DNA of 64,000 nucleotides from Lysobacteraceae bacterium UBA6001 (GTDB lineage: Bacteria > Pseudomonadota > Gammaproteobacteria > Xanthomonadales > Xanthomonadaceae). The DNA lies in the NCBI GenBank assembly GCA_002429615.1, contig DJAN01000179.1, forward strand, positions 3,735 through 67,734, in the 5' to 3' direction. Numbering within the stretch: the first letter of the stretch is position 1; each line of letters opens with the position of its first letter. The notes under the pieces are model-generated. The model ran no database searches. It saw nothing but the letters and a program-made list of their open reading frames with translations, and had not been told where the DNA came from. The position numbers and the translations under genes are program-made. Below are positions 30,532-34,652 of this stretch, piece after piece.

Positions 30532-31440
<909 letters not shown>

Positions 31441-31573: not shown

Positions 31574-31599
31574 GGTCAAAATATCGGCGTTCGGAAAAT

Positions 31600-31722
31600 A
31601 AAAAGCCCCGCAGACCAGGGGGAGGTCAGCGGGGCCAGGGAACGGAAACTTGGGGAGGAGTTGCCGTTCCAGAGATCTGCTCCAGGGGATGGGAGAGATC
31701 CGCGACAGGCGTTGCGCCTGTC
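31600..31722 (-). ncRNA. sX13: sX13-like small RNA downstream of polA
   Basis: Read on the minus strand this is about 120 bases of stacked hairpins. Hairpin 1 is GACAGGCG-CAA-CGCCTGTC (31722-31704). The second has an AGATCT-type stem with CCC and CCCC in its loop (about 31700-31673). The third is GGAACGG/CCGTTCC with loop CTCCTCCCC (31670-31639). Last comes an intrinsic terminator, GCCCCGC..GCGGGGC with loop TCCCCC (31635-31605), ending in a T-run. Upstream, TTATAG (31733-31728) is a good -10. C-rich loops, length and position after polA match the Xanthomonas sX13 RNA, an Hfq-independent post-transcriptional regulator whose C-rich loops pair with G-rich mRNA leaders. The identity is recalled from the literature, not searched. 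Confidence 0.83.
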
Positions 31723-31883
31723 GAGGGCTATAACACCATTTCGGACATTGATAGATCGTGAAGATTTGGGTTAAGAATTCGTCGGATTAAGGACGGATTC
31801 ATTGATTCCTGACGTTTTCACGTTGTGTTTTCTGATGCATTGCGCCGCACTTTCTCACGGGGGTGGAAAGTGCGGCGCATTCA

Positions 31884-34652
31884 TCAATGCGCTTCGTCCC
31901 AGTTTTCGCCGATACCGGCGTCGACCACCAGCGGGACGCGCAATTCAGCGGCACCGGCCATCAGCGTCGTCGCCTGCGTGCGCAGTTCGTCGATGAAATC
32001 CACATCGGCTTCGAACACCAGTTCGTCGTGCACCTGCAGGATCATCAGCGCGCGCTCGCGGTGCGCGGCCAACCAGCCATCCACCGCCACCATCGCGCGC
32101 TTGATGATGTCCGCCGCGGTGCCCTGCATCGGCGCGTTGATCGCGGCGCGCTCGGCGCCGGCACGCTGGCCCTGGCTGCCGCTGTTGATGTACTCCAGAT
32201 ACAGGCGGCGGCCGAACACGGTTTCGACATAGCCCTTCTCGCGCGCCTGCTGGCGCGTGCTTTCCATGAAGTCACGCACGCCGGGATAACGGCTGAAGTA
32301 CAGCGCGATGTAATCCTGCGCCTCGCCACGGCCGATGCCGAGCTGGCGCGCCAGTCCGAACGCGCTCATGCCGTACATCAGGCCGAAGTTGATCGCCTTG
32401 GCGGCGCGGCGCTCGTTGCTGGTGACCTGGTCGATCGAACGCCCGAACACTTCGGCCGCGGTGGCGCGATGCACGTCGGCGCCGGACTCGAACGCGCCGA
32501 CCAGGCCCTTGTCCTCGGACAGGTGGGCCATGATGCGCAGCTCGATCTGCGAGTAGTCGCAGGCCAGCAGCTGCCGGCCGGGCGGTGCGACGAAGGCGCG
32601 GCGGATGCGGCGGCCATCGTCGGTGCGGATCGGGATGTTCTGCAGGTTCGGGTCGGTCGAGGACAAGCGCCCGGTCGCCGCACCGGCCTGGTGGTAGCTG
32701 GTGTGCACGCGCCCGCTGTCCGGGTTGATCATCTCCGGCAGCTTGTCGGTATAGGTGCTGCGTAGCTTCGCCAGGCCGCGGTACTCGAGGATCACCCGCG
32801 GCAGCTCATGCTGGTCGGCAATGGCCTCCAGCGCTTCCTCGTTGGTCGAGGGCTGGCCCTTCGGGGTCTTCACCACGGCCGGCAGGCCGAGTTCGTCGAA
32901 CAGCAGCGCCTGCAGCTGCTTGGGCGAATCGAGGTTGAACGTGCGGCCGGCCAGCTCGGTGGCCTTCTGCTGCGCGGCGAGCATGCGCTTGGACAGGTCC
33001 GCGCTCTGCCGGCGCAGTTCGTCGGCATCCACGCGCACGCCGTTGGCTTCGATGCGCTCCAGCACCGGCACCAGCGGCATCTCGATCTCGCGGTAGACCT
33101 TTTCCAGCGCCGGATCGGCGGCCAGCTGCGGCGCCAGCACGCGATGCAGGCGCAGGGTGATGTCGGCATCCTCGGCGGCGTAGGTCGTCGCGTCGTCGAT
33201 GGCGACGTGCGAGAACGGAATCTGCTTGGCGCCCTTGCCGGCGACATCCTCGTACTTGATCGTGTCGTAGCCGAGGTAACGCTTGGCCAGGCTGTCCATG
33301 TCATGGCGCGCGATGCCGGAGTTGAGCACGAAGCTCTCCAACAGGGTGTCGTCGGCGTAGCCGGCCAGCGCGATGCCATGGCGGCGCATCACGTGCAGGT
33401 CGTACTTGCCGTGCTGGCCCAGCTTGCGCACGGCCGGGTCGGCCAGCAGCGGGCGCAGCAGGTCCAGTGCCTGCGCCATCGGCAGCTGCGCCGGCGCGCC
33501 CGGGTAGTCGTGGGCCAGCGGCAGGTAGGCGCCCTGCTCCGGGGTGTCGCTGAAGCTCAGGCCGACCAGGCGTGCCTGCATCGGGTCCAGGCTGTCGGTC
33601 TCGGTGTCGAAGGCGAACTGGCCGGCCGCGCGCAGGCGCGAGATCCAGGCCTGCAGCTGCTCGACGCTGGTGATCGTCTCGTAGCTGCCCTTGGCCGCCA
33701 GGGCCGGGTCCAGCCCGGCGGCAGGGGCCGGCGATGCCGCGCTGGCAAAGCCGCGTCCGCGCGCCTGCCCGGGTTCCTTCTCGGCCAGCACCGCGCCCAC
33801 GCCGGCACCGCCTTCCAGTTCCTTCAGCGCCTGGGTGAAGCCATAACGGCGATACAGCGCCGCCAGCGGCTCGGTATCCGGCTCGCGCAGCGCCAGCGTG
33901 CGCGGACCCCCGGGCAGCGGCACGTCGGTCTTGATCGTCACCAGGGTGCGATTGAGCGGCAGGCGCGGCAGCGCGGCGCGCAGGTTCTCGCCGATCTTGC
34001 CCTTGATGCCATCGGCCTGGGCCATCACCGCATCCAGCGTGCCGTACTCGCCCAGCCACTTGGCCGCGGTCTTGGGGCCGCACTTCTCCACGCCGGGCAC
34101 GTTGTCGACGGTGTCGCCCATCAGCGCGAGCAGGTCGACGATCTGGTCGGCGCGCACGCCGAACTTCGCCATCACCGCCTCGTCCGAATCCATCTGGCTG
34201 CCGGTCATGGTGTTGACCAGGCGCACGCCGGGACGGACCAGCTGGGCGAAGTCCTTGTCGCCGGTGGAAATGGTCACCTCCAGCCCATCGGCGGCGCCCT
34301 GCAGGGCGAGCGTGCCGATCACGTCGTCGGCCTCCACGCCGTCCTCGCGCAGGATCGGGATGCCCAGCGCCTGCACGATCTCGCACATCGGCAGCACCTG
34401 CGCGCGCAGGTCGTCCGGCATCGCGGCGCGGTTGGCCTTGTACTCGGGATAGAGGTCGTCGCGGAAGGTCTTGCCGGGGGCATCGACCACGAAGGCGACA
34501 TACTCCGGCCGTTCCTTGAGGGTGGCCCGCAGCATGTTGACCACGCCGAACAACGCGCCGGTCGGCTCGCCATCGGCATTGGTCAGCGGCGGCAGCGCGT
34601 GGAAGGCGCGGTACAGGTAACTGGAACCGTCGATAAGGACTAGTCTGCTCAT
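31884..34652 (-). CDS. polA: DNA polymerase I
   Basis: A 922-residue three-domain repair/replication polymerase. Residues 1 to about 290 are the 5'-3' flap nuclease (LIDGSSYLYRAFHA, VVDAPGKTFRDDLYPEYKANR, GVEADDVIGTLA). Residues about 320-520 are the 3'-5' exonuclease with its acidic residues (FAFDTETDSLDPM). The C-terminal polymerase has DYSQIELRIMAHLS, INFGLMYGMSAFGLA and LQVHDELVFE. All look intact. It is divergent from the DUF2782 lipoprotein gene, and the sX13-like RNA lies 160 bases downstream on the same strand. Confidence 0.97.
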   Translation of the reverse strand: MSRLVLIDGSSYLYRAFHALPPLTNADGEPTGALFGVVNMLRATLKERPEYVAFVVDAPGKTFRDDLYPEYKANRAAMPDDLRAQVLPMCEIVQALGIPILREDGVEADDVIGTLALQGAADGLEVTISTGDKDFAQLVRPGVRLVNTMTGSQMDSDEAVMAKFGVRADQIVDLLALMGDTVDNVPGVEKCGPKTAAKWLGEYGTLDAVMAQADGIKGKIGENLRAALPRLPLNRTLVTIKTDVPLPGGPRTLALREPDTEPLAALYRRYGFTQALKELEGGAGVGAVLAEKEPGQARGRGFASAASPAPAAGLDPALAAKGSYETITSVEQLQAWISRLRAAGQFAFDTETDSLDPMQARLVGLSFSDTPEQGAYLPLAHDYPGAPAQLPMAQALDLLRPLLADPAVRKLGQHGKYDLHVMRRHGIALAGYADDTLLESFVLNSGIARHDMDSLAKRYLGYDTIKYEDVAGKGAKQIPFSHVAIDDATTYAAEDADITLRLHRVLAPQLAADPALEKVYREIEMPLVPVLERIEANGVRVDADELRRQSADLSKRMLAAQQKATELAGRTFNLDSPKQLQALLFDELGLPAVVKTPKGQPSTNEEALEAIADQHELPRVILEYRGLAKLRSTYTDKLPEMINPDSGRVHTSYHQAGAATGRLSSTDPNLQNIPIRTDDGRRIRRAFVAPPGRQLLACDYSQIELRIMAHLSEDKGLVGAFESGADVHRATAAEVFGRSIDQVTSNERRAAKAINFGLMYGMSAFGLARQLGIGRGEAQDYIALYFSRYPGVRDFMESTRQQAREKGYVETVFGRRLYLEYINSGSQGQRAGAERAAINAPMQGTAADIIKRAMVAVDGWLAAHRERALMILQVHDELVFEADVDFIDELRTQATTLMAGAAELRVPLVVDAGIGENWDEAH

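Follow-up and report, generated by a model that had tools for sequence, protein, structure and literature searches.

An sX13 ortholog behind polA in a Lysobacteraceae bacterium has a conserved hairpin at its predicted 5' end and may be one branch of a wider polA-linked RNA family

The small RNA sX13 of Xanthomonas is presented in Schmidtke et al. 2013 (PMC3771888) as an RNA of 115 nt, encoded behind polA, that has an unstructured 5' region and three hairpins with C-loops; the length is credited to 10.1093/nar/gkr904. In Xanthomonas the RNA was seen as a discrete species on northern blots, and work with loop mutants and reporters indicated that it represses mRNAs with G-rich motifs independently of Hfq. 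The published target site is the GGGG at +9 to +12 of hfq, and complementation survived the removal of 14 nt from the 5' end. The same paper describes Spot 42 as Hfq-dependent and tied to carbon metabolism, and raises the question of whether the polA locus elsewhere in bacteria also encodes such RNAs. The Spot 42 gene spf is flanked by polA and yihA/engB (PMC3295665), and ersA of Pseudomonas is encoded in the polA-engB region (PMC8575079).

We analysed a 64-kb stretch of DNA from Lysobacteraceae bacterium UBA6001 (the window), in which the first-pass annotation had proposed an sX13-type RNA directly behind polA. A covariance-model search bore this out. The Rfam sX13 model (RF02232) matches positions 31599-31713 of the minus strand over its full length, with 123.7 bits against a cut-off of 50; this is the sole gathering-level Rfam match in the window, and because E = 2.2e-23 for 64 kb the match is not due to chance. 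The predicted 5' end lies 161 nt past the end of polA (31884), on the polA strand and facing hemF (Table 1), in agreement with both the annotated minus-strand place and PMC3771888. Size (about 115-123 nt) and C-loops are also as claimed and as published for sX13, while the proposed parallel with Spot 42 behind polA had already been drawn in PMC3771888 and hence is not new. With sequence, fold, three C-run loops, terminator and place behind polA in common, the window RNA is an ortholog of Xanthomonas sX13, already a known regulator, and its presence here is ordinary.

Table 1. Features of the sX13 locus (positions in the window).
Feature	Positions	Strand	Basis or remark
hemF, coproporphyrinogen III oxidase	30541..31440	+	PF01218, 426.2 bits; convergent neighbour of sX13
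sX13 RNA, predicted primary transcript of about 123 nt	31600..31722	-	RF02232 match and fold; 5' end predicted from -10 spacing and covariation
Terminator hairpin, loop UCCCCCU, then U run	31604..31636	-	Fold, terminator scan; stem covaries
Hairpin, loop CCUCCCCA	31639..31670	-	Fold; CTCCCC invariant in 28/28; inner stem covaries
Hairpin, loop CAUCCCCU	31673..31701	-	Fold; TCCCCT invariant in 28/28
5' hairpin, loop CAA inside GCAAC (not C-rich)	31704..31722	-	Fold; 5' arm upstream of the Rfam start
Putative -10 element TTATAGC	31727..31733	-	Read from the sequence; TAT conserved in the majority of 49 distinct rows
Conserved upstream block CTTCACGATCTATCAATG	31746..31763	-	-41 to -24 of the predicted start
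polA, DNA polymerase I	31884..34652	-	PF00476, 524.5 bits; upstream same-strand neighbour of sX13

Within the same taxonomic family, sX13 matches at E<=0.001 occur in 284 of 297 genomes and exceed the cut-off in 239 of the 297. Outside the family, RF02232 matched 4 of 24 genomes of the same order, all below the cut-off; of 14 control genomes it matched one, Thermus composti, again below the cut-off. Among 30 loci from a first search, which include the window's own and two from the same genus, polA lies within 1.5 kb of sX13 in 29 and hemF in 24. The best relatives of the window's polA among 80 titled records, a set from which very near records may be missing, are from Xanthomonas and Pseudoxanthomonas (up to 84%). 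In one Xanthomonadaceae locus (L194, G024:C2:886200-890500), two tandem sX13 genes stand between polA and hemF, and the GCAA-loop 5' hairpin is kept in both. A second copy in genome G004 (L193, G004:C15:148400-151600) has neither polA nor hemF nor an EngB motif near it and lacks the upstream CTTCACGA block, though it keeps the -10 region; at the other G004 copy (L012) the block and hemF are present, but polA is missing from the surrounding 1.5 kb. In the window itself, a further perfect palindrome (31841-31879; 14 bp, 11-nt loop) stands directly behind polA, and its loop on the polA strand, CACCCCCGTGA, again carries a C5 run. This palindrome is a single-copy element, found once per genome in all three same-genus genomes searched and absent from all four others, which ruled out a dispersed repeat.

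The minus-strand stretch 31722-31600 (123 nt) folds with a minimum free energy of -64.9 kcal/mol, against a mean of -38.0 for shuffled sequences (z = -7.97; none of 200 shuffles as low). Three stable hairpins carry CCCC, CCCC and CCCCC loops, the last being the terminator, just as PMC3771888 describes for sX13. The annotation had counted four hairpins, each with a C-run loop; the fold contains all four, but C-runs occupy only three of the loops and the first is GCAAC. The intrinsic terminator was likewise correctly assigned to the last hairpin, and a simple scan detects a terminator-like site at the 3' end of sX13, but the stem, which had been called perfect, consists of two 12-nt arms that are 92% complementary with one internal mismatch. 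In an alignment of 28 representatives (L001-L030 without the two same-genus loci L003 and L004), RNAalifold finds covariation in the terminator stem and in the inner stem of the second C-loop hairpin; that the loop motifs TCCCCT and CTCCCC stay constant while these stems covary is the pattern that functional loops would be expected to leave.

The window RNA and its relatives differ from sX13 as described in the fourth, 5' hairpin that we propose here. The stretch called unstructured in PMC3771888 is the 3' arm of this conserved hairpin; the 5' arm lies upstream of the Rfam start at 31713, and both Rfam and the published description hold the 3' arm only. RNAalifold recovers the hairpin unprompted from the 28-sequence alignment. 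Across its helix of eight pairs, 98.2% of 224 cells pair, compared with 23-53% for slid controls. Two-sided changes occur in five of the eight pairs (shuffled mean 2.3, reached in 1 of 500 shuffles), double-change cells number 24 (shuffled mean 8.2; 0/500), and the covariation score is 0.388 (shuffled mean 0.260; 0/500); one of the five covariation measures, further pair types, does not exceed the shuffles (450 of 500 reach its value). Because these shuffles do not preserve relatedness, changes were also counted on a polA tree. The tree covers 27 of the 28 rows, L012 being left out for want of polA at its locus, and is poorly supported, with stars on 5 of its 24 inner branches. On this tree two pairs of the hairpin need at least eight changes each, and neither is broken in any row; with starred branches only, there are at most two independent comparisons per pair. 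The GCAA of the loop is invariant (28/28). We found no description of a 5' hairpin of sX13 in the open-licence PMC literature.

The start near 31722 that the annotation predicted, behind a -10 element TTATAG at 31733-31728, gains support from this covariation, which favours it over the Rfam 5' end. The -10 element itself is also where it was read, although the frame TATAGC (31732-31727) comes closer to the usual -10. Its distance to the 5' hairpin is nearly fixed, with one-base shifts in three rows, and usual -10 spacing would place transcription initiation around 31721-31722. The GCAAC loop contains the Rfam start, which we equate with the published 5' end, given that each form measures 115 nt. 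From start site to promoter and processing we infer the following: transcription of sX13 probably begins near 31722 and yields a primary transcript of about 123 nt with the conserved hairpin at its 5' end, and the 115-nt form may be a cleaved product or a mis-mapped end. The published structure would then probably omit the real 5' end of the RNA. Since the form shortened by 14 nt still complemented, the 5' hairpin may not matter for targeting.

Although a simple scan found no full sigma-70-type promoter at sX13, the -10 element and the upstream block suggest that sX13 is made from its own promoter. The core of the block, CTTCACGA, is kept in more than 90% of the 49 distinct rows; PMC3771888 calls the flanks of sX13 highly variable. 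Searched with up to two mismatches in 21 genomes (13 from the window's own or the same family and 8 of the same order), the pattern CTTCACGAWCYATCMATG gives 14 matches, of which nine are exact and all at sX13 loci and the other five have two mismatches. Four of the 13 own or same-family genomes carry sX13 without any match to the pattern. As all nine exact matches are sX13 promoters, a regulon for this block was rejected; the block looks dedicated to the sX13 gene, though it is not universal.

The 5' palindrome could alternatively be a DNA operator, a regulator's binding site at the start of sX13, with the RNA really beginning at 31713. That the Rfam model begins there, giving a length equal to the published 115 nt, speaks for this, as does the position of the palindrome at a promoter and adjoining the conserved upstream block. 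The element nevertheless contains many T-G positions, 20 of 28 at one pair, which are mismatches in DNA and wobble pairs in RNA, so that it fits an RNA better than an operator. Moreover, the -10 at 31732-31727 is 13 nt from 31713 and thus too far away, and in the tandem G024 genes two wholly different stems surround a constant GCAA loop. We regard the operator as unlikely and retain the hairpin at the 5' end of the transcript as the preferred reading.

It is far less probable still that the hairpins are merely a terminator and 3' untranslated region of polA, with no separate small RNA. They do stand directly behind polA on its strand, and the palindrome at 31841-31879 follows the polA stop; but in front of the RNA stand a conserved -10 element and the upstream block, the Xanthomonas ortholog is discrete on the published northern blots (PMC3771888), and the second G004 copy is not beside polA. 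Membership in the Spot 42, ErsA or an alphaproteobacterial polA-linked family instead of sX13 has next to nothing to recommend it beyond the common genomic place (PMC3295665, PMC8575079) and weak matches to two alphaproteobacterial models, Atu_C7 (30.7 bits, cut-off 45) and ar14 (28.7 bits, cut-off 58.8), which could arise from C-loop composition. In a 501-base search neither the Spot 42 model nor that of ErsA / Pseudomon-1 (RF01719) matches the window RNA up to E = 10, whereas sX13 scores 123.7 bits, and membership of the window RNA in these families is refuted, although it may share an ancestor with them.

By analogy with Xanthomonas, sX13 would be transcribed from its own promoter behind polA and stop at its own intrinsic terminator. 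Its C-run loops would pair, like an anti-Shine-Dalgarno sequence, with G-rich stretches at or near ribosome-binding sites; this pairing would lower translation of the target mRNAs, Hfq not being needed, and hfq mRNA is a likely target. By orthology, then, sX13 would repress mRNAs with G-rich ribosome sites, as the annotation had also supposed; expression, repression and Hfq independence are carried over here from the published Xanthomonas work. The GGGG at +9 to +12 of hfq is present in all six relatives where hfq was found, both same-genus genomes included, but it sits in conserved codons, so that the support it lends to the mechanism is weak. The window's own assembly, 90% complete, yielded no hfq. 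The reading as a whole, an sX13 ortholog with its own promoter and terminator, translational repression through C-loops and a start near 31722, has in our estimate a probability of about 0.88.

Similar RNAs lie behind polA outside the Xanthomonadaceae. A covariance model built from the 28 Xanthomonadaceae rows alone (R1) matched 36 of 80 titled polA loci at E<=0.001, with 42 matches, all behind polA on its strand, and found nothing at this threshold in the other 44. According to the record titles, the matched loci come from Rhodanobacter, Luteibacter (one of two), Frateuria, Rudaea, Nevskia, Wenzhouxiangella and others; Salinisphaera shabanensis (copies in a row), 'Endozoicomonas' G2_2 and a Lysobacterales genome have three copies each. 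Eleven further matches were weaker, seven of them behind polA on its strand, one overlapping the end of polA and three elsewhere. Three sX13-like RNAs follow one another behind polA in both L111:4246-4795 (Salinisphaera shabanensis) and L133:4432-5056 (titled Endozoicomonas sp. G2_2), and these arrays are so alike that the latter title may be wrong. C-loop hairpins were counted in 47 loci (those other than L058-L086, L102, L125, L126 and L136). In a stretch of at most 700 nt behind polA they average 1.13 on the polA strand versus 0.49 on the other, and 0.53 on each strand upstream of polA. Two or more such hairpins occur behind polA on its strand in 15 of the 47 loci, as against 2, 4 and 6 in the three controls. 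Under stricter filters, R1 matched 8 of 143 genomes of the class and found nothing in the remaining 135. Two of the eight belong to the window's own family; of the six others, five matches stand behind polA and overlap matches to the anti-hemB model (G344, G359, G401, G441, G451), and one, in G442, lies elsewhere.

Anti-hemB (RF02837), known as Burkholderia RNA 7, resembles sX13 in its C-loop hairpins and terminator. The window RNA itself scores 14 bits with this model (cut-off 49.5, E = 1.3) and is not a member, and in the window's own genome the model has no match; the two are linked solely via intermediate loci. Eight of ten such polA loci scanned with Rfam carry sub-cut-off RF02837 matches, and L137 reaches 56.5 bits, above the cut-off. 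Across the 143 genomes, all but two from different families, the model matches at E<=0.001 in 68 and above the cut-off in six. Of 85 matches, 41 start under 2 kb past the polA polymerase domain; they are spread over 40 genomes, and 38 share the polA strand. The target measures some 2 kb in genomes of some 3 Mb. The other 44 matches are not behind polA. Sub-cut-off matches also occur in the control genomes E. coli, Caulobacter and Deinobacterium, and there are none in the two Xanthomonadaceae genomes of the sample. In 30 fetched anti-hemB loci, polA was found by tblastn in 18, a G-motif that we take to be of the EngB type in 22, and either in 26. The EngB frame is on the strand opposite to the RNA in 19 of those 22 loci, and the one frame checked is an MMR_HSR1 GTPase. 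The loci tested from Xanthomonadaceae, Rhodanobacteraceae and Salinisphaera showed no EngB motif behind polA. Common to most of the anti-hemB locus folds are a hairpin at the 5' side, a first hairpin whose loop resembles CCUCCCU, a second one with a loop that is C-rich in many of them, though not in all, and a terminator. In Pseudomonas (L114), RF01719 matches behind polA with 49.4 bits and so narrowly misses its cut-off of 50. In an Acidithiobacillus MAG, the RNA that follows polA (L135:4720-4815) scores 39.3 bits with ar14 (cut-off 58.8) and 32.9 bits with anti-hemB (cut-off 49.5).

A mixed alignment of the wide family (A4) gave the terminator alone as its consensus fold, so that no second model was built and the wider claim rests on R1, RF02837 and position. 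We infer common descent but do not regard it as proven, because no joint alignment has shared helices beyond the terminator. We read the polA-linked RNAs as marking one old locus and probably one old family, with sX13 as a branch. At odds slightly better than even, we propose that sX13 is not a Xanthomonadaceae invention but belongs to an ancient family of small RNAs with anti-Shine-Dalgarno-like loops, encoded between polA and engB in much of the Gammaproteobacteria and sometimes in tandem. Burkholderia anti-hemB and probably Pseudomonas ErsA would be other branches under separate Rfam accessions, and the sX13 branch would be marked by the constant GCAA-loop hairpin at its true 5' end. No paper joining sX13 with anti-hemB was found in the open-licence PMC literature.

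Two points extend what we found in print: the 5' hairpin of sX13 and the similar RNAs behind polA outside the Xanthomonadaceae. If the 5' end really lies upstream, probing on the 115-nt form would have missed a conserved element of the RNA. To the question posed in PMC3771888 about other polA loci, our results offer a testable yes for many gammaproteobacterial families. If the wide family is real, it would give sX13, anti-hemB and ErsA a common frame and would supply candidate C-loop regulators in lineages for which none have been described.
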